Below, in pieces: positions 2,991 through 62,130 of a DNA stretch of 64,000 bases. The stretch is from assembly GCA_905160935.1 (NCBI GenBank), contig CAJHZI010000713.1, forward strand, positions 124,001-188,000, in the 5' to 3' direction. The stretch comes from Enchytraeus crypticus (Eukaryota; Annelida; Clitellata; Enchytraeida; Enchytraeidae). Under the pieces are notes generated by a model, which was given only the letters and a program-made list of their open reading frames with translations, did no database searches and was not told the origin of the DNA. The stretch's first letter is position 1. Each line of letters begins with the position of its first letter. Position numbers and translations under genes: made by a program.

Positions 2991-5748
2991 CTGTATGAAC
3001 CTACATGCACGACGTTGAAGAGTGTCCTTACCTGTAAGTTTGTGTGTGTGTCTGTCATTCTGTAGGTGTCTAACCTATTTGCACGAGATGAGATGGACGA
3101 GATACTTCAGGAGTTGATAGGACCTATGAAGATAGAGCTACCACGCAAGCCACCGACCAACGAAAACCTCTATGAGTTCTACATGAGTCGAGTGAAGAAA
3201 AACCTGCACGTGGCTCTTTGCCTCTCTCCGGTCAGACAGTATTTTCTATTAGTAATAATAGTTAATATTAATAGTTGACAGTATTATCTATCTATTAGTA
3301 ATGTTTAACCTCATGATTCCCTGTTTTAACTTTTCCAGTTTGAATTTGCTGTTCGCTTATTTTTTATTTTGTCCAATTAATTCCTGTTTAAATGGCATTA
3401 ATTATTTGAATTAAATAATGTTACTTAATATATAAATCTTTATTCGCCACTTGGGCAACCAAAACACACACAGAAGAGGAACAGAAAAACGCAAACGCGC
3501 AATAAACAAAGAAAATTAAACATAAAGAAAAAAACAACAGACTGCACCTCTAGAAGCATGCAACTATAACACCAATATCATCAATATTGAAACCGCATAG
3601 GTAACATTTGACAAATTTCCAAATCTATAATTATTGGGATGATATGCCATTTTTTTGTTTCAAAATTGTTTCAAATTAATGTTATCATGTTAATGTTATA
3701 ATGTTAATGTTATGTTATGTTATGTTGTTGTTGTTTTCTTAATGTTATTTGAAACTTATTCTTTATTTATCTTGTGTTTTTCAATTGCTGATCGTTCACA
3801 GTCTGATATACGCTAACTATATAGGATGGCTTCAAACAGTGATAATTATTAATAAGGAAGGTTATGTGCGGGGTTCAAATCCTGGGCTCGCCCGTCACTG
3901 ATATCGCTTTCGAGTGAGGAAACTGACGTTAGCCTTAGCTGTACCAGCTTTAATAATAAGGAATGCTCACATCAACATTTTATTTGTAATATCACTGTAG
4001 TGCCGAACTGTCGATGTCTTGTTCCCATGCCGCCATCCATAAGAATTGTGAATTTGCCTGTAACTAATGCATCAAGACAACAAATTATTTACGGATTACT
4101 ATGCCTGGAAAGAGGTAGGATGTAGTGTGTTGCAACGATAGCCCATCAAAAGTCAACAAGTCTTCTCTTCAATACTACTCGACACACTCGAGCTACCGTC
4201 AAAGAGAGTAATTCACGCTTGTTATAGCTTTCAAACGAAAAAGCACGCGGCAGTCTAGTATTGAAATGAATATTAAGACAATCTTCTGCCAGAGTAAAAC
4301 GATGAGCTACGAATATTTAAGCTGGAATTTATAAAAACGGCATGTATGTTAGCAAACATTGTAAGGAAAACGCGGACAAGGTTTTAATTTAAATTTTATG
4401 CTACAAAGAAATGGTGTTTTGTGTGCTAAACCGGATATGCAGAATATTTAGGCGATCAACCATGATGGTCTGATATTTAGGATGGCCTACTTCAGTTTTT
4501 ATTAGCTAGTCATTTACGAAATTTTTTCGTTTAATATAAAACTGTTGGGCAATGTTTTCATTTGATTTTTTGCAATTTAATCAATTGGCATGCGTATAGA
4601 AGATGATGACCTCTGGGATTGCCAACAGTAATATCTCTAATAAGCTGTGGGAAATTAAAGCTTGATTTAATCGTCTGTGAATATAGTGTGCTTGAATTTT
4701 CCGTACCTAACTGTTGTCTCTAGCTAATTAATACGTGTCTTCTAATGATTTCTATCATCTTTCCCGTTGTTTGCTTAGTAATTTCTTATTACTTGCACTA
4801 TTTACGGTTGGTCTTTTATGAACTATCCCGAACACAAAACAGACAAACATTTAATTATGGTATGGCTTATTAGGCTAATTATAGTGCTTCCGCATAATTC
4901 TACGATGCAACCATTATTTTAAATTTGAAAGCATCTTCTATGTTGAATTTCAATGTCAATATTTGATGTTAATTCATATAATCAAATTATAAAGTGTTCT
5001 TATATTCCGGGCATTACTGACGTGTTAAAATAAATTAGTTTATACCTCCCATGCTTTCATCATTTCTTTTAGCTGCTTTTAGCCTATTGTAAATTCCAAT
5101 AATTCCACAAAGTTCCAATGTTTTCACGATGTTTCAATGTTTCCACAATATTTCAATGTTTCCATAATGTTTCTAAAATGTGCTAATTCCGCAATGTTCC
5201 ACTATTTCCACAATGTTTCACTTTTCCCTAATGTTCCCGCACTGTTCCAATGTTTCCACAATGTTTCATTGTTTCCACAATGTTCCTATAATATTCCAAT
5301 GTTTCCACAATTTTTCACTGTTTCCACAATGTTTCCCGAATGTTCCCATGTTTTCACAATGTTTCACTCTTTCGATAATGTTTCCCGAATGTTCCCATGT
5401 TTTCACGATGTTTCACTGTTTCTACAATGTTTCCGCAATATTCAAATTTTTCTACAATGTTTCACTGTTTCCACAATGTTTCCACTATGTTCCCATGTTT
5501 TAATAATGTTCCAATGTTTCCACAATGCAGGTTGGAGAAAAGTTTAGAAGTCGATCCCTGAAGTTTCCAGGATTGATCTCAGGCTGCACGATGGACTGGT
5601 TCCAGAGATGGCCAAAGGACGCCCTGGTGGCCGTGTCCAACCACTTCCTGTCCAACTATGACCTCGTCTGCTCTGACCAGGTCAAACATTCCGTTGTGGA
5701 GGTCATGGGAGAGTTCCAGGTTTGTACAGTGTTATTATTACTTTACAC

Positions 5749-8700: not shown

Positions 8701-11700
8701 AGGCTGAGGCAGCTCTTCAAACCATCAAACCAGTCCACATCGCCACAGGTGAGCCATTCCTATATTAGTAGGATCTACTTCTGATTTTTAGGAAGATCGT
8801 TTGTGCATTATTATCTTTCTTCTGAGCGTATGTCGCACTCGTTCAGCTCTCGCTTTGCAGCCTCATCAGCAGTGTTAAAGTTGGTATATTACTTATTTAA
8901 CTAGTTTAATGATAATACTAACAATAGTAGTAATAATAATAAAACTAATGATAAAATCTCTAATAATAATAATAATAATAATTATTATTATTATTATTAT
9001 TTAATTTTTATTATTTATTTACCCCGGGTGTAAAGAACCCAAAGTTTGATAAAAAAATGATTCGAGCAATATGTGCTGAATCGCTGCCCGGCTACTCGAG
9101 GGCATCTAGCTGCTTAAAAGAATTGCTGAAGCAGATGAATTAAATATTTGCAAAGTCATGGAAAGCCTTTGCCAAAGAAATAAGGTCTCTCGTTTATCGC
9201 CGGTAATTTATTATTATTACTATTAAATTATTATAATTATAATTATATTAGATTTTTTATAATTATTAACGTCACTCTTTTAAATTTATGTGTATGATTT
9301 TCTAGTTAGAACACTAGCTACTACAGATTTTTGTATTTGTTGCTTTCCAGCAAATTGTTTTGGATGTAGCCAGTTGGCGAAGTCGGTAAGATACTCGACC
9401 GCGAATCAGTATGTGCGCGATTCAAATCCTGGGCTCACCCGTCACTGACATCGCTTTCGAGTGAGGAATCTGACGTTAACCTTAGCTTTTTTAGCTTTCT
9501 CCAGTTAGGAGACTGGGGGATATATGTTTTCCTCTTTGTCTGTTGTTTTCCAGTTAGACTTGCTGGTATATGTTTTCCTCTTTGTCTGTTGTTTTCAAGT
9601 TAGGAGACTTGCTGCTATATGTTTTCCTCTTTGTCTGTTGTTTTCCAGTTAGAAGACTTGCGAACCCTCCTCACCTGATCCAGAGGATCATGGACTGCGT
9701 GCTGCTGCTCTTCCAGAGACACGTCGAGCCCGTGACCATAGACTACGAGAAGCATAGCGTCAAGCCATCCTGGGCCGAAGCCCTCAAGGTCATGGCTTCC
9801 GGAAACTTCGTCCAGGCTCTCCTAACCTTCCCCAAGGTCAGGGTCAAGACACTTAGACTTGAGTAGTTGATCTAATTCTAACCATTACGTTAGCTTCTGA
9901 TGTTAAATGTCATAGCCATTTAAGAAGCAATAGTGGATACGATTGTGTCCTTGAAACCTTCTTACCATTATCTACTGTTCCAGAAACAAAATAATTTTAG
10001 CCTTTTACTTGAGACTATAATGAGAAAAGTGCTGTTAAATTTTTATCAGCAAATATTTTTAAGTTGTGATTTTGAAATTTCCAAAAGGAATTTTCCAATA
10101 TAATACGGTGCATAAAAACTTCTTTTATTAGTGCCATCTTTAGGTTTGGCAAGAAGGAATTGTTTAGTAAATACTTTTACAGCACTTCATATTGTAATTT
10201 TGTGTAAATTAATCGACTTACCATCGATGGCTATTGTATTAATATAACCAAGAAGTTAATTACTTCATAAAACATGAACTAATATTTATTCCATTGCAGT
10301 ATATTTGCAGTATATTTGTGCATTTGTACAACTCGAATTTAATTTATGGATTCATAATATATCTACAAACATTGTGGTAGGGCATTTTTGTTGTATTATC
10401 AGAATGTAAGAAGGTAAAAATCAAAGTATTTTTATCTATATTTCTATTACTTTATTCCACCACCGTCATCATGATCAACATCATATTTCCTTGGTTCCCA
10501 GTGTAACCAGGGTCGGGATACAAATATACCTCCTCCACTCCTCTCTGTCTCATACCATGTCATTAGTCAATCCCCTATTTTTCATAGCTCTCTCAACCAC
10601 CAAATCCCAAGTCAGTTGAGGTCTATCTTTCTCTAAAGTAACTCCATTTCTTTGTATTCTACTATACCAGGAGACAATATAACTCCATCTCTTTACATTC
10701 TACTATATTCCACCAGGACACAATATAAATCCATCTCTTTGCGTTCTACTATATTCCACCAGGGCACAATAAAACTCCATCTCTTTACATTCTATTATAT
10801 TCCACAAGGGCACAATAAAATTTCATCTCTTTACATTCTATTATATACCACCAGAACACAATGTAACTCCATCTCTCTACATTCTACTATATTCCACTAG
10901 GACACAATCAAACTCCATCTCTTTACATTTTGCTATATTCCACCAGGACACAATAAACGAGGAGACGGTGGAGCTGATGAAGTCCTACCTGGAGATGGAG
11001 GACTACAACATAGAGACAGCTCGACGGGTGTGTGGTGACGTAGCAGGTCTGGCCTCGTGGACTGTCGCGATGGTAGACTTCTACTCCGTCAACAAGGAAG
11101 TTCTGCCTCTCAAGGTACGAGTGATGATTAGCTTTAAGAAGATGGGCTGGTGCTGGTTTAACTAGTTTTAGTTGTAGTTGTGACTTCAGCAGCCAAAACA
11201 TAGAACTTTGGCAGTCAGGGGCGTTGTGCCATTGAACCATTTATGCATCCAGATGAATCAAAAATATTTGTTTTGATAAAATTTTGCTGAACTTACATCT
11301 GAAATTGTATTAAATTGTGTGCTCTTTATTTCAATTATACTGATAATCGTAAGCATCAAAATTTAATATTTTGATATTAATGCCGATCACTGAAATAAAG
11401 TTGTAGCTTTACAGTTGCGCTTAAACGAATGAATGTTGACTTTGGAACTTAGTTGGAGGTTTTTGATTGGGATCAATTTTGCTTTAGTTGGCTTGTAGCT
11501 CATAATTAACGGAGTCAAAATAATAGTAGCTGTTAAATGTAATCGATTAGATTTTGTTGTCTTATATAATCTCTAATCTTCAAATACAGGTAAATTAATA
11601 TTGTTAATATTGTTATTCAATTAACATTTTTGATTATCATGTAAGTGAAACTTACACGATAATTATAATCAATAATAACCAAACGTACAAATTCAGTAAT

Positions 11701-12378
11701 TACACTGATTAATATCGAACACAATTGTAACCAGGTTATTGTAATGTGACATGTAGAGTACATGTAGTGCGTTAAGACTAAGAAGGGCAAAAGTTGAGTT
11801 TAACGTCAGTTTCCTGTATCAAAAGCATGTCAGTGACGTGGCGAACACTGCAGCTACTGATACCTGGTCGACGTCCTAGCTGATTACAGTACGCTTTGCA
11901 CGAGTCTCTTTTGTTTCTCTTGCAGGCTAATCTCTATTGTTTCTCTGCGCCTGCAGGCTACTTTCTGTTGTTTCTCTGTGCCTGCAGGCCAACCACTATT
12001 GTTTCCCTGTGCCTGCAGGCTAACCTCTATTGTTTGCCTGTGCCTGCAAGCTAACCTCTATTGTTTCTCTGTGCCTGCAGGCTAACCTCTATTGTTTCTC
12101 TGTGCCTGCAGGCTAATCTCTATTGTTTCTCTGTGCCTGCAGGCTAATCTCTTTTGTTTTTATGTGCCTGCAGGCTAACCTCGCAGTACAGGAGGCGAAG
12201 TACGAAGCAGCCATGAAGGACTTGAACAAGGCTCAGGCGACTCTGGATGAGAAACAGAGAGAATTGGATGTTGTGCAGGCATTATATGAACAAGCTATGT
12301 CTGAAAAACAGGTGTGCCGAACTTGATTAGTATATATAATGGAATAACTAATATATATAATAATATATATTATATTTA

Positions 12379-12415
<37 letters not shown>

Positions 12416-12422
12416 GAGAGAG

Positions 12423-12503
<81 letters not shown>

Positions 12504-15500
12504 CTTGAGCTTGAATAATTTATATATATATATTTATTATTTTTTTCATGCGTAAACATGCAGGAATCATGCAAATTATGTGACATCACCAAGATCGGTG
12601 ATGGCGCGTTAAGGTTGTGAATGTTTCTAACGTGGACAAAGTGTGTTCTTGAAAGTTTTCATTTTAGTGGCTGACTCCGTATGGACCGACCTAAAGGTGT
12701 TTAGTTTTTACGGTTCGAGTCTAACCGTAGCTTTTAGTATGATCTATTTAAAGTTGCACTGTGGAAATTTGGCTTTCGTAAACTGAGTTATTAACATCTG
12801 TCAGGCTCAGCGTATTAGTTAGTGGGTCGAGTGGACCTGCCGCTCCGCAGAACACTAGAGACATCTACTAATAACTGTAGTTTCACAATCTCTTGATTGA
12901 TCGGTGTCATAAAGATATTGTCATTTCATATTATTAAAGGAATGACGCAATTTTGTCATTTCATGTTATTAAAGTAACGACACGATTTTGTTAACTCGTG
13001 TTATTGAACTAATGCCACAATTTATTAAAGAGTAACCTTTCTGTTGTAATCAATATAGACGTTGGTGGACGATGCTAACGCATGTCGTAGAAAGATGAAC
13101 AACGCAACAACTCTGATTGACGGTTTGTCTGGTGAAAGGTTGCGCTGGACTAACACTCTCAAAGGTGAATTTAATACCTTTTTGTGCAGATTAACATAGT
13201 TTACTTTAGGCCAGCTAGCAGAGTTATATTTCAATTGTATGATTCGTTGTGGCATCTTAAAGTATGAATTTTAAATATTTAATGACGCCATTCCATTCGG
13301 GCTATTAAAAGACTTATGTTTGTATATTCGTACTTGTTTAAAATAAGTGAAATCTATTTAATTAAAGCTTTAGGCTAGCCAGTGCATTACTAGCAGATGC
13401 AATATGGTATTACATTTTCACAGTAGTGCTTGATGTTTTCCTGGATGACAATAGCACTATAGCAAATTGTTGCTATGTTATGTAACGATACCGAGCTCTG
13501 AAATTAATAGAAAATATAGAACATCTGAATATCCATGGTATATCTGAAGGGATAGTAAATTTCACAGCAAGCTTTAACACAACTTATTTTAGACTAGACG
13601 TACTCAATTAATATGGAGCTTGTGTTCGGGGTATTAGATAATTTCTCAGACAGTCAGTTTACAACCTAAAAAGCTTATCTAATCCTACCCTCTTAAATTC
13701 AGGGTTTAATTATAAGATTAAATAGGTCAAATTTAACAAACAATAACTTTGAAGAACTTTAAAATCTCTGAAGAGGTAAGCAATCTTTAGTGATTTGAGA
13801 TGATACTCCATTTAACAGTCACTTTCTAGTTTTTGGTAATAAGTTTGTGTACGAATGTGCAGAATTGGATGTTACCTTGGATGACAGTAGACTCTAATTG
13901 AGTTGTTGCTGTTGCTTAGGCTGTTATTGTTGTCGCTATCGTTGCCTTAGTCGTTGTCGTGGTTATTGTTGTTGTTACTGTTGTTGTTGTTATTAGTATT
14001 GTTTTTGTAGTGCCGTTGTTATTGTTGTTGTTGTCTCTTTGTTGTTGTTACTGTTGTTGTTGTTAATAGTGTTTTTGTGGTTTTTATCGTGGTTATTGTT
14101 GTTGTTGTTGTTGCTACTGTTATTTTTTAGCTTCAGAAATTGTGCTTTTGTTGAATGTTAGGATTCGAAGCTCAGACTGGTCGTCTCGTTGGTGACGTCC
14201 TCCTCGCCACGGGATTTCTCTCATACGCCGGACCCTTCAATCAGGAGTTCCGCAACCTGATGCTGCGCAACTGGAGGAAAGAGATGACCAAGAAACACAT
14301 TCCTTTCTCTGATGTTAGTGCCGTGGATAATATTATAGTGCATTGTATTGTACCGGTTGATGGTCGAAATAGTAAGGCGCTTGTCTGGTAAGCAAAAGGT
14401 TAGAGATTTGAAACCCCACTGTACCGTTTCTGAAAGTATATTGGTGGAACGCGTTAACTATTGCTTTATTGCTATATAGCTCTAAATCTATGGCTTTATA
14501 TCCGTAGCTTTATAGCTACATAGTTTTATAGCTGCCGTTTTTCTTCAAATGAATTACAGCTACTAAACTCACGCATCAGAAGTACTAAACTATGCGTCTA
14601 CTTCTAGTGACAGTAATTATCATGTAATTGTTTGCATACACTTGAACATAACGTCAACATTAGTAATTATCATGCTCGTCTTATGCATGCAGGACTTGAA
14701 CATAACATCAACATTAGTAATTATCATGCTCGTCTTATGCATGCAGGACTTGAACATAACATCAACATTAGTAATTATCATGCTCGTCTTATGCATGCAG
14801 GACTTGAACATAACATCAACATTAGTAATTATCATGCTCGTCTTATGCATGCAGGACTTGAACATAACATCAACATTAGTAATTATCATGCTCGTCTTAT
14901 GCATGCAGGACTTGAACATAACATCAACATTAGTAATTATCATGCTCGTCTTATGCATGCAGGACTTGAACATAACATCAACATTAGTAATTATCATGCT
15001 CGTCTTATGCATGCAGGACTTGAACATAACATCAACATTAGTAATTATCATGCTCGTCTTATGCATGCAGGACTTGAACATTACATCAACATTAGTAATT
15101 ATCATGCTAATTTTATGTATGCAGGATCTGAACATAACATCAACATTTTTATTTATTGTCAGGACAGGATCTAAGTCTGAGTCATCACTTGTCAGACACG
15201 GACGTTAAACCCTATTCTGGCCTCAATTTACTCAGTACAGACTATAATAATGAGAACATAACAAACTCAGTGTTTATAAATTAAATAATAAAGTAGTATT
15301 TAATACAATAAAATACGAACACTAATTCATGAATTAGGGCATAATTAAACCTGAACCAACATCGATCAGAACTTAATAAATTACTTTAACCACAAAAATA
15401 GAAATCAATATATTTAGATCACCTTCAACACATAATCTTTTATTCAATACAACCTAGCTAAACTATAACTTAAAAGAACCACACTTAAAACAACCACTAT

Positions 15501-18500
15501 AACTAATTTATGAACTAGACGATTAGATTAGAACTAACCTATGCAGCTTGGTGCTATAGCGAATTAGAACTAAAACTAGCGTGCTAATCCTAAACTAACT
15601 ACTAATATAAAACCTTCTGTAATACTATAGGCTCCTAGGCCTTAAACGCACTGCCACACGGCTATAACTATCCCAATAGTATCCTGGTACTATAGACCAA
15701 AATATCTACGACTAGTATCCTGGTACTGTCGTCTATAACTCAACAATTGACTTGGAAAATTACCTCAAAACTAAACCTAACTATTCCGCACGCCATTAAA
15801 AAATCAAGTCCTCTAATATCGCTCACAACAAACCGCATCATCTTCTTTGCCGCTACGCCCGACAACAACAACAATACAGTAATTTAATATAGCATATTGA
15901 AAACACAAAGAAACTTATATATATAGAAGCACGAACCCTGACAATTATCATGCTAATTTTGTGTTTGCAGGACTTGAACATAACGTAAAAATTAGTAATT
16001 ATCATACTAATTTTTTGTATGCAGGATTTGAAAATAACGTCAACATTAGTAATCAGCATGCTAGTTTTATGTATACAGGACTTGAACATAACGTCGATGC
16101 TGGTGGACAATGCGACGGTGAGCGAGTGGAACCTGCAGGGGCTGCCCAGCGACGAGCTATCCATACAGAACGGGCTGATCGTGACCAAGGCTGCTCGGTA
16201 CCCACTGCTCATCGACCCTCAGGGGCAGGGCAAGATCTGGGTCAAAAACAAAGAGGCGGCTAATGAACCACAGGTTGGTGAGATTAATATTTTTTAATTC
16301 TTACAAATTCTATCAAACGTTTTGTATCATAGTATACTTTGCATAATATGTCCATCCCGTAAATGTTCTGTCAAGTGACGGATTCAAGGAACGTTTCAAA
16401 GTCTGCAGTTCTTCACGGAACTAAAAACTAAAGGACTGCAACATCCAGAAATTTGATGTATTTGACATTGACACATGCATTTTTGTATTGTCTTGATTGA
16501 GGAAAACATGATTTCTGATGTGATTTCCCGTTATCGGCTTTGACTTCCTTAGTTACCCCTATGATAAATGTAGTTTCATGACTTATTTATTCTACAATGA
16601 CTGGAACTATAGCACAAGATGATGATTTTGATCATATAACAATAAACTGCCTCCTAGTGGCTAGGCTATTTATCGAACAACTCCCTTCCCTCTCATTTCT
16701 TTTATTTTTTTCTGCCTGTCTCTCTCCTGCTCTCTTTCTCTCTCTCTCTCTGTCTCTTTCTCTCTCTTTGTATAGAGAATATGTGTATATTATTCGAAGT
16801 AATGTCTCAATTAACTCAGATTTAATTTCTTTAAGTCAACCGTTTTTACTAAACAAACAAATCCAGTGATCTAGTTGTTGTGCGTTTAACATCTAGTTAA
16901 GAAATACATGAATATTCTGAAAGATGATTCTAGCTATTAAATCTGCAATCAACAGCCCGATTTGAACTTATTGCAGCTTTTGTTCAGGATGTGTCTAGCA
17001 ATCGTATCGTTGAAAATGTAAATTCGTATACCCGCATACTCTCATATATGCCCCATTTTGCACGTCTTATGTAATCATATTATATCACTGTATTAATTTT
17101 CATTGTTTTTTTACATTTTTTATTCTTGTGATTTGTGCTCTATTAGATTACTAATTTAAACCACAAGTACTTCAGAACGCACCTCGAGGACGCTTTATCT
17201 CTGGGCCGACCTCTAATCATAGAAGACGTCGGAGAGGAACTTGACCCTGCCCTAGATAACGTCCTTGAGAAAAACTTCATTCGCTCGGGGAGTTCTTACA
17301 AGGTCAAGGTCGGAGACAAAGAGGTAGACGTTATGTCAACGTTTAGACTGTACATTACCACGAAGCTGGGTAACCCTGCCTACACCCCTGAGGTCAGCGC
17401 TAAGACGTCCATCATAGACTTCACGGTGACGATGCAAGGTCTGGAGGATCAACTGTTGGGTCTCGTCATTCTGACTGAGAAGAAGGTGAGCAAGGCTCGA
17501 TGCCATCATCAATCAATCAATAAATAAAAATTTAACGTCCGTTTCCTCGCCATAAGGCAATGTAAGGGACGTATCCTGCAGACTCTACACAAACAGGCGC
17601 CAAAGCATTCTCATGTTGTGAGCAAGACTAAATGTCATCATGACTTAGGTGAAGTGTCAGTGAAGTTATTATCATGTTGTGAGCAAGGCTCTATGTCATC
17701 ATGGCTTAGGTGAAGTGTCAGTGAAGTTATTATCATGTTGTCTTTTGAGTACAGATATCGGGACGGATGAGCTTGTAAATATTTTGCTGCTTGACATATA
17801 CGCTGATGCCTGAAACAAAAAAATAGTTTAAACTCATTTAATCTACTAATTTACTCCTATTCTTTAAGCCAGTTGATAGAATTATTTAAACCTGTTAATT
17901 AATTAAAAAATAATTATAAAACTTACTATTCTATTACAATTATTTATAATATATACTTCTCCTCAGCACACTTCTTTTGCAGATTGGTCGGGGTGAATTC
18001 ATCTGTAATGATGTGTGCTGCTGGGGACGTCCCTGACATCATCCCTGGATGAGGAAACTGACGTTAAACCTTTATTATTATTATTATTGTTATTATTATT
18101 ATAATATTTTTTTTAATTACCCCGGTGTAAAGAACCTGGGGTTTGATAAAAACGATTCAAGCAATACGTGCTGAATCGCCGCCCGGCTACTCGAGGTCAT
18201 CAATCGGCTTAAAAAAATTGTTGAAGCAGACTGCATTAAATCTTTGCAAAGTTATGGAAAAGATGTCTCTTGTTTATCGCCGGTTTGCTCTGCAATAAGA
18301 CTGCCTATGCCATTAATGACGTCAACTTCTTCGGGATTCATCGGGCCCATGGTTTCAATGGCCACCGGAACAACTTCATATCGTAAGGACAGATTACGGT
18401 ATTTATCCAACTTCCTAGAGGCGGCATGAACAGCTGCTCTACCGGCTGTTACTGAAGTCGTATTCAGGTAAGAGTTTGCCATGGTGTCAATGACCGTGAC

Positions 18501-20770
18501 GTCTCATACGGCACATTTACCGTTGCACCAGGGCACTAAAGTCATGCCGTCCGGACGCTTGCCGTCTGATCTGGACAACCCACTAGGTTCCTTAGACGAA
18601 GGGATGCCTGCTCTTGAAAGTGCTCGCCATATTAAGTCATTTAAATTGTGATGGCGAGATATTCTACCTGAGCTTCGTTTGCAGGAGAGGCCGTGGAGAC
18701 CAAAAGCGTCGACTTCATGATCGCAGGGGCATATGTGAGGCTCGCAAGTTTTCGCCCCTAAACGGAAACTAACGGCTACTCGAATCGCCTCATTGTCTAA
18801 AAAATTATTATTGTTATTATTATTATTATTAGTAGTAATATTATTATTATTATGAAATTATGTTTTCAATTTTATTCCGTTTGTTCATGGTTAATTCACC
18901 AGGAGCTGGAGGCAGAGAGAACCAAGCTTCTGGAGGAGGTGGCGGCAAACAAGAGGAAGATGCAGGAGTTAGAGGATAACTTGTTGTATCGCCTCTCATC
19001 GACAGAGGGCTCACTCGTAGAGGATGAGTCACTCATCGAGGTGCTACGCGTAACCAAGGTAACGGCCAGTGACGTAAGCGAGAAGTTGACCGTTGCCGCG
19101 GAAACCGAACTGAGAATCAACAGCGCTAGAGAGGAGTTCAGACCCGGTAACAACCATTTGTTAAATATCACATTTCATGGTGCCTAAGTTAATAGCGCGC
19201 TTGTGTGATAAGTAAGACGTCTTGATGTCCGAGATCCGCAAGACCACCAATTTCGGCCCACTTATGTTACTGAAACAGACGTTCAAATTTATTTAATTAT
19301 GTGACAAATATTTACGCATTGAGAAAAAAGCTTTAATATATTGTAGAGATTTTAACATTAATGCGAAATTATTGCAAATCAGTCTCGAATTTGTTCAATT
19401 CATAGGTGTATAATTGCTAAGTTGAGAATATACTGGTATCCATCTAACATTATATTTAAAATGCTTTATCATTAGAGACTTAATCACATTTCTAGATCTC
19501 GGAGACGACGTAACCCAATGTATATCTCGTTATGACACTGTATCTATTTCCGGCTTGATTTTGTCTCAATAGTGCTCGATGTTGTCATTGATGAATGTCT
19601 TTGAATGTTGTTGTATATGGACCTCTATCCCCGTTGAAATGCGCAACTTAAAGTCATATGTCTCATTTAAATGATATTACAAAAGTTTTCTTACAGATTC
19701 ATAACAGTGTCACCTGTCCGCTCTTGGCAGAATAGTTTGCCATTTTGCTTGCTCTGTTTGATAACTTCATTTTTCTTAAGTTCATATTTGCTAATTTTAT
19801 TAATTTTACTAGTATTTTGGCTATTTGTATGTTATGCAATTTTGCTGTTATACTAAGTCTTGCTATTTTGAAAGTCTGTAGACATATAGTTTTAAACTAC
19901 CAATAACATTACTCGGACGTATTTCCTGTGGTGGTCAGCTAGATAGAGCACCTTATGCCCTCTCTGATGGCCACAGAATTCAATGAATAAGATGTTTGAT
20001 TTTAACTGGAATGATTGGTGAGATTTAAATGTCTGATGCATGTATTTATTTTTTCATTTATATGATGTTTGCATGATATGTCTGTGTACTGTGATTTCTC
20101 TGATATTTTTTACTTTTGTTCTAATAAATTCTTCTTCTTTGATGACTGTAACAATCTAGTTGTTGTTATTATTATTATTATCTAAACTAAATTGCTACTA
20201 AATTGCCTAATCCCGACCCTAGTTAAATTGGGATTCCAGAGTAGATAAAGATGACGATGAAGTAACTTTGAAGTTATATTTGATTTTAGATTAAGTAGTT
20301 AAATTTTGTTATTTCTTGAAATGTATATCAATAGTGATTATATTTATTTAAACCTTGTAATCTGATACTATTTGTTTTTATTGTTACAGTGGCCACTAGA
20401 GGATCGGTGTTGTACTTCCTGATAGTAGAGATGAGCATGGTGAACGTGATGTACCAGACGTCTCTGCGTCAGTTTCTACAGCTCTTTGACAAGGCCATGG
20501 CAAGATCTACCAAGTCTCCCATACCAGCACGCCGCATCGTCAACATCATAGACTACCTGACGTACAGTACGTTCGTCTACACCACCAGAGGTCTCTACGA
20601 GAAAGACAAGTTCATCTTCACCATTCTGATGACCCTCAAGATACAGCTGCAGGCCAGAGCACTCAGGCAGGAGGAGTTCCAGTGCTTCATCAAAGGTTGG
20701 GTACTTTCCTTTTTTTTTTCTCTCTCTCTCTCTCTCTCTGTCTATCTGTCTGCCCGTCTGTCTTTCTCTC

Positions 20771-23800: not shown

Positions 23801-26800
23801 AAATTAACCTGTGAACTTGTTAATTATCCATTTAGCTTCTAGAAAATAAAATACGTTTAATTTATACAAATGGCATGATGGATAATTAAAAGCTTAAAAT
23901 TAATAATATTTTCATTAATTGTGTGTCTTTATATTAATTCGGAAAACACCCATATTTTTAAAGCTCATACATAGGCCTATATTAAAGATATACGCTCAAA
24001 TATTTATTAATCGCCGTTTCATTTTGATCCGTTAATTTATTCAACGTGTCGCCTTGTCCATATCCGTGTTCAGGAAAAACAATTTAAATAGACTGACACA
24101 TTCGTGCAGGTACTTCTTAACTATCGATTTATCTATTTATTTATTTATTTATTTTTTTATTCATTAAGTCGATGATAATCACATAAATCATTGAAAACAT
24201 CAAATAAAGTAAATAAAACTACTACTTCAAATGAGAAATTTAGAAGAGATTGAGAGTACGGAAAATACAGGCCATGGAGGCACTTATATATTCCGGACAT
24301 ATACAGCAGATTGTTTAAATCAAGAAATAATTTTAAAGAGCTTAATTGATTTAATTGAAGTGACTTATTCACTATTCCCTTTCAATTAATTTTTATATAG
24401 ATGATTTAATTCAACTATAAAATTCAAAGTAATTAAAGATTATATAAAATTATTAAATATCGATTGTGCTATCATGATGAAAATTGTTGGATTAGGTGGA
24501 TCGAATGTAGGTCAGATTGATTAAAAGTCCAGTAGAGTAGTAGAACGTAGAAAGGTATGATGTGATATGATATGATATTGTCTGTAGTCCTGGAAGGAAT
24601 GGTGGGACTCGGACGCTCCGGAGGAATCTTCCATTCCAGACGGATACAATTCATTGAGCACATTCCACAGACTGCTGTTGATCAGAAGCTGGTGCGCTGA
24701 TAGGATTCTGCCAATGGCTAAGATCTATGTGGCTGAAATAATGGGAAAAGAGGTATACTGATGGTCCTATTCATTGTAAATAAGATATTTACACGATTAA
24801 TAATTGCCCTTGTTGTGTTCGAGCCACTGCAGAAGAGACCAACCGTAAACAACTCATGCCCTAAGAAGGCGATTGAGCAAGGAACGGAGGAATGCATTAA
24901 GAAACCACATCGGAAGCCATATTTTCTCAAGATAACATCTGCATATAATTTCATAAAAGATTAACCTTTGTGATTGGATCAACGCTGATCAATGGTGTGC
25001 TCATACTGTTTGTCAGACTGAGTTTTAATATGTATCTTGAACCAGCCACCTTGCAGAACACGCGAGGGAGACTATCAATAATATTTATTATTGTTTTAAT
25101 ATTTATTCTTCTTCTACCAAATATTTAATTAAAATGATAGTTTACATTTTATGTGGGTTTTGGATTCGACCCTCAGTTACTCAGTCTCGATCAAGTGGAT
25201 AGATCTAAAAAGGGAGAAATGGGAATGAAAAATGAAGATTTTCGTGAATTCATCTCCTACCTTTCGTTGAAAGAATTACTAAAACATTTGCAGTAGGTAC
25301 AGAGGACTAAAAATGTTAATAAAGTCGTATAGATAATAATCCTGAAATCTATTTATTTTACTTACATTTGCATAGGTTTGGACTCTAGGCAATGAATTCA
25401 AACATTTTGTTATAGTTATTTCAGAGTGGCTATGCCACTCTATATATCTTAGAATTTACTCTTTAAGAAAAAGATAGATAGCTTGTGTCTAAATATCCTT
25501 GCTCTCAATGATTGATCCAACCTAGGTTCATGGCGTTTGTTTTGAACACTAGAGTTTAATTCTAAATGTAGCAATACATTTTTGCTTTTATCTAATTATT
25601 ATAACATTTACATACAACGTGCATAATATGTGCAATCGGACATACGTAAGGTCATAAAGTTTGTCATGAAACTTTCGTTCATTTTCCGCTTAATTATAGC
25701 CTATGAGATACTTCTAATATTTGAAAAGGTAAGCATTCTAGATATTAATTGACGACCCAGTGTTTATAGGTATAATTCAAAAGTAGAAATGTACTAATTT
25801 AATTTCATATGTAGTACAGTGTAAGTTTACTTTTAATGTTATGAAATTTGAGCCATTAAATTGTTGTTTTGTTTTCAGTACGCAGAGGGCGTGGTGTTGG
25901 ACATGGAGTCTATGTGGCTGGAAAGTACCAACCGCACCCCACTGATCTGCTTCCTCTCCATGGGATCAGATCCCACTGAGAACATTGAGAGATTCGCCAA
26001 GGCCAAGGCAATAAGTAAGATTTGTATGACAATAAGTTTTGTATGGCAATAAATAAGTTTTTATAAGAATAAGTTGTCCAAGACTATAAGTAGGTTTTGT
26101 GCGCGAATAAGTTCTGCAAGGGAATGAGCTAGCTGTGCGTTGGATGAGGATGATGTTGGATTGCAAAGCATTTCGGATGATTTTGATGACAGACATTGCG
26201 CTATTTCATTTAAGATTAATATCAAAATACACAGACGATGAGAGTGTCAAGGTTATACAGGGATGTAAATTGAAAAATATATAGAATAATATTGAATAAT
26301 ACAAGATTAAAACAGTATGAAGCTGCAAATATCGTGGGCACGCTATTTCGAATGACGTAAAGTGTGAAATAGAATTAAATAAAGAATTTCAGAGACAAAT
26401 GAAAGTTTAGGTAAGAGAAAAGTACTCCTAACAGAAGGTATTGGAAGAAATGCGAAGAATTTCTAGGAAATGTTTCGCATTTCTGTATGGATATGATACG
26501 TGGACGTTAAGGAAAGAAGATATCAGAATACTAAAAGCATAGGACATGTGGTTAGGGAGAAATATGGAAAAGATAAGTTTGACTCACAAAATTAATTGAC
26601 TTTAGAGATCTTAACGTAGGTTAATTTTATCTTGGTAAATCATTTTTATACGTTATTTTAAGATTTTGCCAATTCATATTATAATTTTATCTGTAAATTT
26701 CCTTTCCGTACCTGTTACATAGTTTATGTTATGTGTTTCATTGTTACAATCTGCGGTTTGTTAGATTGATGATGGAAATAATAATAATAATAATAATAGA

Positions 26801-45790: not shown

Positions 45791-46035
45791 AAAACAAAAT
45801 ATTTAAAAAATTCAAAAACAAAATTTAATTTCCAAAGTATTTCAGAAAAACTTGCAAGTATTTCTAAAAAACTTACTGATTGCTTCTAAAAATACTCAGG
45901 GAATTAAATTTTGCTTGCATCAAGTACAAACTAAATATTTCAGTTTTGCAAAAAATTGGTTACAAATTATCACGGATGAATAAATATCACCAATGAAAAA
46001 AAGTATTACGAATCAAAGGTAGAATAAAGACTTAC

Positions 46036-47145
46036 TTCTTTTATTATAGTACTTGCTGTTTTCATATTCATTACTCCATTTGTGAAAAACAAGATGCCTA
46101 GCGTGAACTGATAAAGATCCAATGGCTTGAGTTCGTTGTGAGTCATTTTGTCGATCAGATGGGCAAGACCGTTAGCGAGTCCTATTCCATTGACAGTCAG
46201 ACTTCCGAAGTTTGCTGCAGTAACTGCGATACGACCGGCCATGTTGAGTACATTGCCTGATCTTGCGCTAGCAACCATTGCTTTTGTCGCTCCGCCTGCA
46301 GCAATACCCAACAATGATCCCACTAAACTAATCCAGGCGGCGCGAGCTTCTGGATCCAATAAGGATGTGCTCTGGTCGTGTTTACCGCGATCCACAAGTA
46401 CTTCGGCTGAGCGATAGGTGCCGTAAACTGCAGAACCCGCTCCGACTGCAGCTGATGTTGTAGCCAATATAGGGCCAACTGGGGTGAAAAATGAGGCCAC
46501 CAAAATTCCAGCTGAAAAAGAGCTGCCTGCCATTCCGGTGAAATCAAGAACAGTCTTTATCCTGTTGGATAAATCGCAGGCTGGAGAAGTGCCGTAGGAA
46601 ATATCAACTTTACCGAATTCATCGTCATCACCAGATTCTCTATCAGTGTAAAAGCCATTTGTTGGGTAACAATACATACACTTGGGAAGAGTATTATTGT
46701 CTAGATAGTCCTTCCAATCCTTATACACTCTTCCAGTTGAATCAATGTATGATGCCTCGTCTTCGTCTCTATCAGTGTCAATGCAAACTCGAAAAACTGG
46801 CAACGTGAAATTCTTTTCGTGCATCTTGATGCAAACGAATACTATGGCCATCAGAACACCTTCGTTTTCGATGTGTCGAAAACTGAGCTCAACAAGTTTC
46901 TCGCAGATCTCAGCCGCCTTTTTCTTCTGCTCTTCGGTGTAGCCAGGCAATTCCTCGTCAGTGTCTTCGTATTCTTCAGGGCTTCCAAACAAAGCGAAGC
47001 AAATCTTTGCGCGCAAATATTTTAACTGGGATTCATAAAAACAATCCCAAGTTCTGTCTGAGAGTGAGATGTGATACTCTTGCTGAGTCTTAAAAGCTTC
47101 CTCCTTCCACTCTAGTACATCTGGTGCGCTCCAGTCTGACCCCAT
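46036..47145 (-). CDS. DUF4781-family protein, exon 1 (conserved core)
   Basis: ATG at 47145; 370 codons; donor AAAGAA|GTAAGT at 46035, joined in phase 0 to 44215. Landmarks: LKYLRAKICFALFGSPEEYE (41-60), ELPGYTEEQKKKAAEICEKL (65-84), VFRVCIDTD, then CxxC in LPKCMYCYPTNGFY (153-166), and a glycine-rich hydrophobic core SAGILVASFFTPVGPILATT (211-230) with VYGTYRSAEVLVDRGKHDQS. I recognise this as the DUF4781 family known from arthropods and other invertebrates; its function is unknown. The hydrophobic core could insert in membranes, but that is inference. The total protein would be 741 residues. TAG at 47157-47155 closes the frame upstream, so translation should start at 47145. Confidence 0.85.
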
Positions 47146-47159
47146 CGCTCGATGCTATG

Positions 47160-47168
47160 CTGAGAAAG
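47160..47168 (-). promoter_or_regulatory. Acceptor-like site between the two ORFs
   Basis: On the - strand, ctttctcag ends at 47160, 14 bases before the DUF4781 ATG. It could be a cis-splice acceptor from an upstream noncoding exon or a spliced-leader acceptor. This is a sequence match only. Confidence 0.35.
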
Positions 47169-47672
47169 TTACCACCAAAAGTGTGTTGACGGCACTCCAG
47201 TTAAATCAGGAGGATTCTCATAGGAAGCAAGTGGATCACAGCAGGTTTCCTTCCAATGTACTATGGAGGATGTAAGTTCCGTCACTTCTTCCAGCTCGAT
47301 CAATGAGTCCAATTTATTATATGAATCCGAAGACTTGACTAGGTTGTAATCCTTGACCTCCTTTACAAAGAACTCCAGTCCAGATCTCAGGATCTGAGCA
47401 GTTATTAGCTTCTCGGCTCCTAAATCACTAAAGCTATAAGTCACTCCAGCTGTTATATTGTCCAGGCTCTTGGGAACTAGCTCATTCACTGTCTGCTTTT
47501 CTTCTTCAGTGAACTGAATGTTCTGTTTGCCGATCTCGAAGAATTCAAAAAACAGTTCATTTGTAGTATGAGCATTTAAATATCTAGCATTGCGCGTTTG
47601 TAGCTCGGACGGAAGATATTCTGAGAGCTTCTTCAAAGTCCCTAAAAAGTTTGATTTCAGTAGCTGAGACAT
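47169..47672 (-). CDS. 167-codon ORF just upstream of the DUF4781 ORF
   Basis: ATG at 47672, stop TAA at 47171-47169. It encodes MSQLLKSNFLGTLKKLSEYL, ELQTRNARYLNAHTTNELFF and a regular helical charged sequence ending GVPSTHFWW, with no motif I can name. It looks coding, with even composition and similar codon use to its neighbour. It ends 23 bases before the DUF4781 ATG in another frame. It may be the N-terminal part of the same gene in a form I cannot join, an upstream cistron, or a broken exon. A possible splice acceptor (gatttag|gaagaac at 47695) precedes its ATG. Confidence 0.6.
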   Translation of the reverse strand: MSQLLKSNFLGTLKKLSEYLPSELQTRNARYLNAHTTNELFFEFFEIGKQNIQFTEEEKQTVNELVPKSLDNITAGVTYSFSDLGAEKLITAQILRSGLEFFVKEVKDYNLVKSSDSYNKLDSLIELEEVTELTSSIVHWKETCCDPLASYENPPDLTGVPSTHFWW

Positions 47673-50697: not shown

Positions 50698-50768
50698 TGC
50701 TGAGCGAACCAATACTGAGTCTGAAATCAGCCTCAATGGAATTGATGCTACAAAAATTGTAACATAAC

Positions 50769-51680
50769 ATGCATGGACTTAATCAGGGAATTTTGATGCT
50801 AAAAAACTTATGTTTCACTAGTAAAGTTGACATAATATATTTACAAGAATATTGGTTAAAAAATGATCAGTTATCTAACTTTGATTGTTTTAGTACCGAG
50901 TATAATATTTATGTATCTTCTGCCATGGACCATGTGTTAGGTAGAGGTATTTTAAGAGGTAGAAATTATGGAGGTGTTGGTATGTTTATAAGAAAATCAT
51001 TTTGTAATATTGCATCGAATGTTAATGTAATTATGTGCAGCAAGCGATATATTGCTATAACAATAGATAAACTACTGCTGGTCAATGTATATCTGCCAAG
51101 TTGTAAGAGTGCTGCCGACCGCAATGAGTTGGAGTTTACACTTCATTCAATTGAGTCAGATATTGCTAATGTGGAATTTAATTACGCGATAATTGGAGGT
51201 GATATTAATCATAATATCCTATTGAAATCCGACCTAGCAAATTATATAAAAAATTTCTTTAGAAATATGGGGTTAATAGTTAGTAACCGTCTTATTGATG
51301 ATTGCCTTATTCAATACACCTTTGGAGTGAAAACTCGAAATGCGTATTCGTATATTGATCATTTCCTAGTAACAGATACACAACCTAGTTTCATTACGTC
51401 ATTGGATGTCATTGAGCAAGCAGATAATTTCTCTGATCATCTACCAGTTGTATTAAATATGAAACCAGATGTGTTAAAGCATTGCTTTAAAATTATTAAC
51501 ACTAATGACTCAAATGTAAATCGTTTTGTCTCCACATACAACTTTGATTGGCGTGGCTCATCTACCTCTGATTACTATGAATTAACTAGAAGTGCGTTTT
51601 ATAATTTATACATACTGCTCAATAATCATGATCTTGACAAGTTATACGAAATATCTTTAATCAAGCTGGTATTAATATGA
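50769..51680 (+). pseudogene. Retrotransposon ORF2 endonuclease part
   Basis: 303 codons of an AP-like endonuclease: MHGLNQGILMLKNL, the metal-binding glutamate in YLQEYWL, GGDINHN, YIDHFLVT and closing SDHLPVVLN. The catalytic order E...D.N...SDH is kept. The frame is broken upstream (taa at 50764) and at 51680. Confidence 0.8.
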
Positions 51681-53663
51681 TATATAGAAATGTAATTAAT
51701 ATTTTAAAAACCTGTGCTATCAGAACTATAAAATAAAGAGGTAAAAATGGTGTACGAAAATTTTGGTGGGATGAAAATTTAGATACATTTAAACACGATT
51801 CCATTGAACATTTTAATAATTGGAAAAATGCAGGTAAACCAAATGAAGGCAACCTGTTTGATTTGAAAGTTAAAGCTCACAGAAACTACAGAAATGCCTT
51901 AAATGAGAATAAGCTGAAGTATAAAAATAATGTATCAGCTGAATTACAAAATAATCTACTAAATTCAAATGGTTCAAAATTTTGGAAATGCTTGAAGGTT
52001 ACTTCTTTAAACAAGAACATACCCAAAATGATGTTACTGTAGAAGGATTTTAAAAAAATACTGAGATTGCCAACGCTCTTGCTAATAATATAAAAAATGC
52101 CTGCACACAAAACTCATTAGAAAACACCAAACTTTTCGGGATAGCTATTTTTGTAAAAAGGGGTTTATGAAAATACAGAAAATGAATGCTATATTGAAGT
52201 TGAAGCCATTGATAAAGCAATTAATAGCATTGAAGCAAACAAAGCTCCCGGCGCAGATGGGTTAACAATTGAGCATATTGCTTATGCGCATCCGTCTTTA
52301 ATTATAATTCTAAGAACTCTGTTTAATATAATGTTGAAGTTGGGAAAAGTTCCTGATGAGTTCGGGGTTGGCATTACTACGCCAATACCGAAATTTAAGG
52401 ATCACAAAAGAAACATGTCTGCTGACGACTTTCAAGGCATAACGATATGCCCAATAATATCAAAAAATTTTGAATACTGTATTTTAAGGTATGTTAGTTT
52501 AGAAACCTCCACACGGCAATTTGGATTTAAACAAAAAGTCGGATGCACTAACGCCTTGCATAATCTTAGAAAAGTTGTTAATTACTTCAATAATAGAAAC
52601 ACTACAGTAAATATTGGGGTAATTGATCTGAAAAAAACTTTTGATAAATGCAATGGTTATGGAACTGTATGTATGCTGCAGAACAGAGGTGTAAATAAAT
52701 GTGTATTAAATGTGCTAGAAAGTTGGTTTACCAAAAACTCTACAACTGTTAAATGGAAAAATTGTATGTCTAATTGTGTGCCTCTATTATCTGGTGTTAA
52801 ACAAGGAGGAGTTCTGTCACCCATTTTATTTACGTTATTTATGGATAATATATTGAGTGTAATAGAGCAATCTAATTTAGGATGCATTGTTAATTATAAA
52901 TGCTTTAACAGCTTCATGTATGCTGATGATTTAATTTTGATTAGTGCATCGGTTACTGATTTACAGCTTATGTTTGATATATGTGATAATGTTTTCAATG
53001 AGTTAGATTTGCCAATAAATGTGTCAAAATGCCATTGTATAAGAATAGGCCCAAGGTGTAGCTATTCATGCTCACCTTTAAGTATTCAAGGAGTTGCAAT
53101 TAATTGGGTGGAATCTATTAAATACTTAGGAGTCACTATTTGTAAGGCAAAAAATTTTAAATGCCAATGGGAAGAATCAAAAGGGAAATTTTTTAGAAAT
53201 GCTAACACCATTTTAGGAAGGCTGGGAACAAAAGCATCTGAAGATGTCATTCTTAAACTGATTGATAGTAATGGTGTATCAGCATTGCTTTATGGCACTG
53301 CTGCTGCCACCCTGCGAGATTCAGACTTAAAGAGTATGAGTAGAGCATATGACAGTATCTTTGCGAAGATCTTTCGTACGACTGACAAGGAAGTAATTAT
53401 GTGGTGTCAATATTATTTTGGTTTTTGGCCATTGAGTATCTTATATGAATACCATAGATATAATTTTGTTAACAAATTAGCATTAGATGCCCAAATTATT
53501 AAAGGGATCGAAATTAGATCATCCAGATTATTTAGAATTTGAAAGTTTGCAAAGGAAATATAACATTTCGTTTGTTGATTCTGTTGCTAAAGTGCGATTA
53601 AAATTTTGGATCTACGTTGACAAAATGCTACATATTGAATATTCTAATGAATAATTGAGTTGA
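51681..53663 (+). pseudogene. Retrotransposon ORF2 reverse transcriptase part
   Basis: 51681-52330 is frameshifted but shows IEANKAPGADGLTIEHI, the RT entry motif. The open frame 52331-53542 (403 codons) gives PIPKFKDHKRNMSADDFQGI, SGVKQGGVLSPILFTLFMDN and the catalytic FMYADDLILIS, then ESIKYLGVTI and LIDSNGVSALLYGTAAATL. It is followed by tag and stop at about 53650. YADD is intact although the ORF as a whole is broken. Confidence 0.88.
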
Positions 53664-60155: not shown

Positions 60156-61001
60156 GTAGTTCATGGCGTGAGAGGTAAATCGTATTGCCACTTATAAATG
60201 GATTAGATTGATCAGTAAACTATTGATTTTCTGCCAATTTAATTAATTTTTAAAAAAAGGTTTGAATGAGACATTCTTAGTATAGTGAGTGTAAGTGAGA
60301 GTAAGAGTGAGAGGTCGACGCTGTTTGAAGTAGCCTATACATGACAAGACATACATTATATAAGTAATGTTATTAAGACATATATAATATCCCTGTGTAT
60401 GATTTGGTTAAATAAATCGACATTTGAGGTATTACGTTTCTTCTAATATAAGTAATTTTAAAAATCAGTTTTAAATGGAAAATTATTCGCAAGAGAGTAA
60501 GTGATCGATCCGTATTTTTGTATTGCATGACACTGCATATCTTATTAGAAATGCTATTAAGAAAGATAGCACTATGTAGTAGTTTATGGCGTGAGCGGTA
60601 AATCGTATTGCCACTTATAAATGGATTAGATTGATCAGTAAACTATTGATTTTCTGCCAATTTAATTAATTTTAAAAATAAGGTTTGAATGAGACATTCT
60701 TAGTATAGTGAGTGTAACTGAGAGTAAGAGTAAGTGAGAGGTCGACGCTGTTTGAAGTGGCCTATACATGACAAGACATACATTATATAAGTAATGTTAT
60801 TAAGACATATATAATATCCCTGTGTATGATTTGGTTAAATAAATCGACATTTGAGGTATTACGTTTCTTCTAATATAAGTAATTTTAAAAATCAGTTTTA
60901 AATGGAAAATTATTCGCAAGAGAGTAAGTGATCGATCCGTATTTTTGTATTGCATGACACTGCATATCTTATTAGAAATGCTATTAAGAAAGATAGCACT
61001 A
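60156..61001. repeat. 423-bp tandem duplication
   Basis: Two copies (60156-60578, 60579-about 61001) beginning gtagttcatggcgtgag and ending aagaaagatagcacta. They differ at only a few positions, for example one a lost in a run and gtgagagtaag against ctgagagtaag, so the event is recent. Confidence 0.92.
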
Positions 61002-61450: not shown

Positions 61451-61858
61451 ACGTGGTTCTCGGGGCGAAGTGATATGGTGACCCAAACCGGGAGTGGAAG
61501 CGTACTCCACGTCTGTTATATATTTTGAGCGATTATGGTTTGATTTTCTACCCTGCTTCCTAGTTTTACAAACTGGTATAGTAGATAATTATATGATTGG
61601 TTGTTTTAACTGCGACGAACTTTATCTTCTTTACCCTAATAAAACCCTTTTTAGACGTGGTTCTCGGGGCGAAGTGATATGGTGACCCAAACCGGGAGTG
61701 GAAGCGTACTCCACGTCTGTTATGTATTTTGAGCGATTATGGTTTGATTTTCTACCCTGCTTCCTAGTTTTACAAACTGGTATAGTAGATAATTATATGA
61801 TTGGTTGTTTTAACTGCGACGAACTTTATCTTCTTTACCCTAATAAAACCCTTTTTAG
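61451..61858 (+). repeat. 204-bp tandem duplication
   Basis: Two copies (61451-61654, 61655-61858) starting acgtggttctcggggcgaag and ending cctttttagac, nearly identical. Each holds, on the - strand, a diverged copy of the gag-like start (DVEYASTP), so that coding segment is present three times in a row. Confidence 0.93.
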
Positions 61859-62130
61859 ACTTATTCTTCCCTATCTCTCTCCTATACTGGTCTTTCCGTA
61901 GTTTCTACTCTCGCCTTTGCTGAAGGTAGTATAATTGGCCTTCCGTGTAGTCGATAAGAAATTCGTTGATAGTAAACTGGTAAGTGGTAATCACGCTTTT
62001 CCATCCTTTTAATACTGGTCTTCCCGTAGTTACTTCTATCATCCATTGTTGCTGAAGGTGGTACAATGGCTTTCGTGTAGTCACTATAAAATTCGTGGAT
62101 AGTCAACTGGTCATTAGTAATCCTGCTCCC

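Follow-up and report, generated by a model that had tools for sequence, protein, structure and literature searches.

The window analysed here is a stretch of 64,000 nucleotides from the annelid Enchytraeus crypticus (C617:124001-188000, in an assembly of 524 Mb and 802 contigs), and all small coordinates are window positions. Its plus strand carries, at 412-35570, the 3' part of a gene for a DNAH5/8-type axonemal dynein heavy chain, in which four introns end in tandem arrays built from the splice acceptor and the edge of the next exon. The 27 exons were modelled by spliced alignment to a homologous protein (P0002) with an aligner that permits only GT/GC-AG introns; all 26 introns of the model were GT-AG, and the exons were free of stop codons. 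The closest solved-structure match of the concatenated exon translations was a chain named dynein axonemal heavy chain 5, and the same query also matched proteins named DNAH5 or DNAH8 from many animals. We also modelled the 5' part of this gene, which lies beyond the window in the C617 flanks, and two dynein paralogues at C294:210001-260000 and C230:70001-100000. The sample thus comprised 109 introns, namely 26 of the window model and 83 more, one of which (87-412) lies inside the window and 82 outside. The first nine exons of the C294 gene (gene2) were modelled from P0098 and the remainder from P0002. The C230 gene (gene3) had 31-58% identity to the reference, and some of its boundaries may be wrong; its exons shorter than 26 nt (3829-3837, 11063-11070, 20018-20026 and 25379-25393) were excluded before counting, as was exon 19394-19549, the meeting point of two partial models.

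Copies of splice junctions were searched with a 20-nt query consisting of 10 intron and 10 exon nucleotides, and copies in the window were counted at up to 5 mismatches. Four acceptors had upstream copies (4 at 9649, 6 at 10947, 7 at 12174 and 11 at 16079), the other 22 of the 26 window acceptors had none, and 1 of 26 donors had downstream copies. The four arrays are on the plus strand and lie before exon 8 (9495-9661, acceptor 9648/9649, three upstream units of 49, 46 and 49 bp), exon 9 (10661-10957, acceptor 10946/10947, six upstream units of 46 bp), exon 10 (11921-12182, acceptor 12173/12174, eight upstream units of 31 bp) and exon 13. The exon-13 array has 54-bp units in two parts: a distal part (14640-15147) with seven identical units, and a proximal part (15943-16094, acceptor 16078/16079) with two diverged units and the real junction, separated by an insertion of ~795 bp of non-repeat sequence (15148-15942, strand not assigned). 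Tandem Repeats Finder (TRF) showed that 13, 11, 9 and 16 nt of exons 8, 9, 10 and 13, respectively, belong to the unit, and the exon-13 part extends to 19 nt when single mismatches are allowed.

The 20-nt test, TRF and the homology model therefore confirmed the initial annotation, made from the letters of the window, in that four acceptors end arrays of acceptor plus exon-edge units, and the phased units reproduced its periods of 46-49, 46, 31 and 54 bp. The 9-20 exon bases it gave per unit became 9-19 nt, and the exon-13 array proved to be split. The introns it numbered 8, 9, 10 and 13 are introns 7, 8, 9 and 12 by the window count, ending at exons 8, 9, 10 and 13. It also took the unit phase to be fixed by the exon edge; phase is not an intrinsic property of a tandem array, and what can be tested is that the arrays end 9-19 nt inside the exon. 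Three weaker or different cases were found in the same gene. An array with a 49-bp unit on the plus strand (5094-5527) is purely intronic and ends 3 bp from exon 4, a weak donor-side array (26009-26074, plus strand, ~17-bp unit, 3.4 copies) crosses the end of exon 19 at 26014, and a single diverged edge copy of exon 22 (29297) near 29169 escaped the 20-nt test.

The exon edges that recur in the introns code for residues also present in homologues. P0002 has DTIN and ANL, V-R-R corresponds to V-R-K, and DLNIT is shared with Ephydatia (P0005) at a position where P0002 differs (SINIV). The exon is thus most likely ancestral, with the intron copies derived from it. Introner-type mobile introns leave similar copies scattered over unrelated introns. 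The arrays here do not show this pattern: the exon-10 array matched one place in the genome (in a search that skips simple repeats and very common words) and 3 of 4012 non-adjacent exon-intron pairs matched. Rfam gave no matches.

The junction test was then applied to all 109 introns at up to 3 mismatches. Copies were present at 4/26 acceptors in the window, 1/16 in the 5' part of the window gene, 17/41 in the C294 gene and 2/26 in the C230 gene; the corresponding donor counts were 0/26, 1/16, 11/41 and 0/26. In total, 24/109 acceptors and 12/109 donors had copies (binomial P 0.065), and control positions 60 nt inside the exon had them in 2/108. When each exon was compared by blastn with its own adjacent intron on the same strand, 20/109 matched on the acceptor side (window gene 3/42, C294 gene 15/41, C230 gene 2/26) and 8/109 on the donor side (1/42, 7/41 and 0/26), a modest difference (Fisher P 0.025). 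Blastn detected just one of the four window arrays, the exon parts of the other three being too short. Comparison of exons with non-adjacent introns gave 1 plus-strand and 2 minus-strand matches among 4012 pairs. This confinement of similarity to adjacent exons on the same strand supports duplication of exon-intron boundaries, and the donor-side matches in both tests indicate that acceptors are not the sole nuclei, contrary to the initial annotation. The copies faded with depth into the exon, from 23/109 at 0 nt on the acceptor side to 10/109 at 20, 5/109 at 40, 0/102 at 70 and 1/97 at 80, and from 14/109 at 0 nt to 0/108 at 60 on the donor side; control introns gave 1/106 at 40 nt and zero at the other eight depths. 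In the C294 gene, blastn matches reach exon nt 79, and the first part of exon 35, to nt 63, has two 100% identical copies.

Such a pattern might arise by chance if ordinary minisatellites happened to end at exons, and tandem arrays indeed account for 10%, 31% and 7% of the intronic sequence of the three genes. The placement tests excluded arrays with a period below 15 bp, at least 85% A+T or low entropy, and overlapping rows were merged; the two parts of the exon-13 array were counted as two arrays, and the C294 gene array 20026-20546, which overlaps a donor and an acceptor, was counted in both classes. In the window, 4 of 16 intronic arrays straddled an acceptor as opposed to 0.31 expected at random placement (P 1.7e-4) or 0.42 under a wider null (P 6e-4), and one straddled a donor against 0.31 expected (P 0.27). 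Among 67 further arrays, 17 overlapped an acceptor (6.08 expected, P 3e-5) and 10, all outside the window, overlapped a donor (6.22 expected, P 0.075). Pooling all 83 arrays gave 21 acceptor overlaps against 6.5 expected and 10 donor overlaps against 6.7. The non-random placement proposed in the initial annotation was thus upheld in the window and replicated in the further introns. A position-level test of the window acceptors (4/26 at up to 3 mismatches) gave P 0.07 by shifting and 0.13 by the binomial, which is evidence against junction targeting; at 5 mismatches the values were 0.38 and 0.49, and the overall range was 0.07-0.49 over two nulls and three thresholds. An upstream copy at up to 3 mismatches was found for 7.7% of intronic positions in the window. 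The placement and position tests disagree owing to the abundance of tandem copies throughout these introns. The non-significant position-level result speaks for chance, but the placement P values and the adjacency of the matches (20/109 as opposed to 1/4012 on the plus strand) make chance a very remote explanation.

Another explanation is that splice junctions, mainly acceptors, are mutational hot spots, which a process tied to the 3' splice site duplicates preferentially. Low-complexity branch-point or pyrimidine sequence, R-loops, and repair from lariat or nascent RNA are candidates for such a process. The larger excess of array overlaps at acceptors than at donors and the 24 to 12 split in the 20-nt test are consistent with it, as is the occurrence of (TTGA)2 motifs in the last 40 nt of 28/109 introns compared to the first 40 nt of 3/109. 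In the C294 gene, (TTGA)n was present at 20/41 intron ends and 2/41 intron starts, and 13% of interior windows carry the motif too; TTGAT resembles the branch-point consensus. Per position, however, acceptors do not differ from intron interiors. Pseudo-junctions inside the same introns had upstream copies in 6.5-38% of cases, which, weighted over the 109 introns, predicts ~24 acceptors with copies, and 24 were found. Acceptors therefore equal intron interiors in repeat richness despite having an exon on one side, and donors reach about half. Arrays pinned at the acceptor could give this pattern, and so could a plain high duplication rate filtered by selection. Considering also that donors participate, we regard preferential duplication at acceptors as unlikely.

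The copies within single arrays differ in age. The seven identical units of the exon-13 array, its youngest, lie at 14693-15070, ~1 kb from the acceptor, and the two exon-proximal ones have 81% identity. The identical distal units suggest a recent change in copy number, as seen in one assembly, and the array looks to be amplifying still or to have done so recently, far from the acceptor. Young distal and old proximal copies point to minisatellite turnover rather than to repeated copying of the live acceptor as the continuing source. Units of the exon-8 and exon-9 arrays are 78-92% alike. The exon-8 and exon-13 arrays look old and later broken by insertions. A diverged remnant of an older exon-8 unit was found at 9298-9350 on the plus strand (score 29, reached by 0/200 shuffles, with a maximum of 26), and a dispersed repeat resembling a short interspersed nuclear element by eye lies within the older exon-8 array (9359-9498, plus strand, with as many as 5 overlapping matches in other parts of the window). 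A remnant scan of six array flanks gave 0/200 for exon 8, P 0.005 for the left flank of the exon-13 array, 0.025 for exon 9, and 0.12, 0.21 and 0.85 for the others. No array remnant was found inside the 15148-15942 insertion (shuffle test P 0.21). The insertion ends in TGTCAGG and CCTGACA, by eye a possible short terminal inverted repeat.

Some arrays adjoin dispersed repeats. The exon-9 array begins 9-14 bp after the dispersed repeat 10445-10652, and a 61-bp, 2.2-copy array (17607-17741) starts exactly at the end of the dispersed repeat 17513-17607, so that the exon-8, exon-9 and 17607 arrays all start at or within 14 bp of dispersed-repeat ends. Transposon ends may be considered as seeds of the arrays, but the exon-8 remnant lies beyond its repeat, which there probably came later. 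The introns with edge copies had a median length of 898 bp (n=32) and those without 847 bp (n=77, P 0.30), and an upward ratchet of intron length, as suggested in the initial annotation, was thus not supported.

Many of the copies retain splice signals. In the window, 27 of the 29 upstream copies keep the AG, many of them with ordinary scores, and 71 of 76 acceptor copies at up to 3 mismatches keep it over the 109 introns, a count favoured by the AG in the query itself. These copies might be used as alternative acceptors or exon extensions, with the arrays regulating or diversifying the protein, and the copies 10809 and 16025 can indeed be read through without a stop. Splicing at the other 27 of the 29 would introduce one, however, and the exons encode a strongly conserved motor. 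Furthermore, the lag to the nearest copy showed no preference for reading frame (10/8/6 over 24 acceptors), in line with upstream copies that do not serve as exons. Functional use of upstream copies is therefore improbable. The homology model supports the last unit as the true 3' splice site, and the stops fit the proposal that the arrays are nearly neutral if the last copy is used.

The arrays belong to a kind already described, the mirage minisatellites of amphioxus, and the statement that no such system was known does not hold. In the passages covered of the main source (PMC3087553), tandem units span the intron-exon boundary in Adh3, globin and other genes, at both 3' and 5' intron ends, with unit sizes of 10-72 and about 150-160 bp; many copies keep AG or GT, splicing is reported to be undisturbed, somatic instability is reported, and one mirage was mis-assembled in the draft genome. 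The covered part of a second source adds troponin C and PGBD5 (PMC3902484). As in amphioxus, the units here combine the end of an intron with the edge of the exon next to it, both boundaries are duplicated (here 8/109 donor-side pairs and 10 donor-straddling arrays, with one weak case in the window), and many copies retain splice signals. The amphioxus mirages, as far as these passages go, are from a handful of genes in a cephalochordate, whereas the arrays here occur in an annelid, at 20/109 acceptors and 8/109 donors in three genes. Normal splicing and somatic instability are reported for the former, whereas the latter are known from the sequence of one assembly. Canestro et al. (2002) is cited in this literature.

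The mis-assembled amphioxus mirage raises the alternative that misassembly accounts for the arrays or for their length. We consider this hardly credible, since units differ within the exon-8 and exon-9 arrays, insertions split two arrays, the pattern recurs on three contigs, and the contiguity of the assembly suggests long reads.

Intron gain by tandem duplication in potato RdRp, in the passages covered, involved duplication of a boundary segment with branch site, pyrimidine tract and acceptor (PMC4974935). A boundary segment is likewise duplicated here, but a new intron arises in the potato case, as covered, whereas the copies here sit in introns that already existed, and no new exon was observed. 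A human minisatellite is said, in the title of a 1995 report by Turri, to give several splice donors to an interferon-induced transcript; it contains splice sites as the arrays here do, and differs in that they are, per the title, donor sites. Earthworm metallothionein genes have large intronic minisatellites and exon-4 duplications, with no exon-edge arrays in the passages covered (PMC12783039). The titles and abstracts listed for annelids or duplicated splice sites described no exon-edge arrays in annelids. New here are the prevalence, the replicated acceptor excess and the annelid host.

Taken together, these data make it likely that the arrays are mirage-type boundary minisatellites, arising by neutral minisatellite turnover that is filtered by splicing. 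Tandem duplications of tens of bases would be frequent in introns throughout this genome, possibly by slippage or repair, and some breakpoints would fall inside an exon, so that the unit includes the splice site and the exon edge. Such a duplication would survive provided that a functional splice site remains in the copy adjoining the exon body, with the same bases still joined, and retention of the copies would be neutral. The remaining copies would be intronic from then on, with the turnover of any ordinary minisatellite, a reading supported by the abundance of tandem arrays in these introns anyway and by the undisturbed splicing reported for amphioxus mirages.

Several results weigh against neutral turnover filtered by splicing. 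With a simple matrix built on the other 22 window acceptors, the real acceptors of exons 8, 9, 10 and 13 scored 7.8, 5.2, 9.6 and 9.3, respectively. The best upstream copy outscored the real site at exon 8 (8.6), exon 10 (10.1) and exon 13 (9.9), and at exon 9 the real acceptor was the highest-scoring of its array. With the real site strongest in one of four arrays, strength alone cannot select the last copy and was rejected as the reason for its use. The neutral model needs an additional rule for picking that copy, and exon definition is the likely selector of the exon-proximal one. For exon 10, the sequence most like a branch point for the real site is GCTAAT, which stems from the exon part of the preceding unit and lies 27 nt upstream of the exon; this is suggestive of a branch point supplied by exon copies in this array alone. 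The acceptor excess, ~3-fold, exceeds the expectation from uniform breakpoints and has no explanation under neutral turnover, and the exon fractions of acceptor-straddling units are non-uniform (Kolmogorov-Smirnov P 0.013). Prevalence is also strongly gene-dependent: the C294 gene holds 14 of the 17 further acceptor-straddling arrays and 9 of the 10 further donor-straddling ones, and of the former the C230 gene has 2 and the 5' part of the window gene 1. It is conceivable, though doubtful, that acceptors in this genome are preferentially duplicated by a process linked to the 3' splice site. A considerable fraction of introns would then consist partly of neighbour-exon edges, and the amphioxus mirages would be one instance of a wider mutational process in animals.

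Outside the dynein gene, two-copy tandem duplications lie at 60156-61001 (427-bp units, 97%) and 61451-61860 (204-bp units, 99%), showing that large tandem duplications occur in the window as well. A protein with a DUF4781 domain is encoded on the minus strand at 46006-47672 (PF16013, E 6.9e-76 within 46006-47151), and next to it lies a second open frame (47169-47672). Remnants of a retrotransposon of the long interspersed nuclear element type were found at 50763-53542 on the plus strand, with a reverse transcriptase (PF00078) and an endonuclease-like frame below the Pfam cut-off. In the same assembly, contig C802 (15,205 bp) is mitochondrial, and one strand of part of it showed nad3, a nad2-like frame, cox1, cox2, a putative atp8 and cox3. 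The putative atp8 frame matched no Pfam family. ARAGORN with the bacterial code detected no tRNAs in this part, and anticodons for S, N, D, Y and G were read by eye in the spacers. The gene order is presumably the annelid ground order, with no named match to confirm it, and AGA occurs at COX1 sites expected to hold serine. A tree of DNAH proteins did not place the host, and the reverse transcriptase and the DUF4781 protein gave no informative named match. COX1 fragments above the family cut-off on C361, C424, C796 and C373, three of them with TAA or TAG stops, are probably nuclear copies of mitochondrial DNA.

With mirages at about a fifth of the acceptors in three long genes, the phenomenon becomes countable beyond the handful of amphioxus genes in the passages covered. 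The arrays are natural tests of how the spliceosome chooses among near-identical acceptors, and their exon-edge copies, which resemble exons, are a trap for gene prediction. They may also be a source of new introns and exons.

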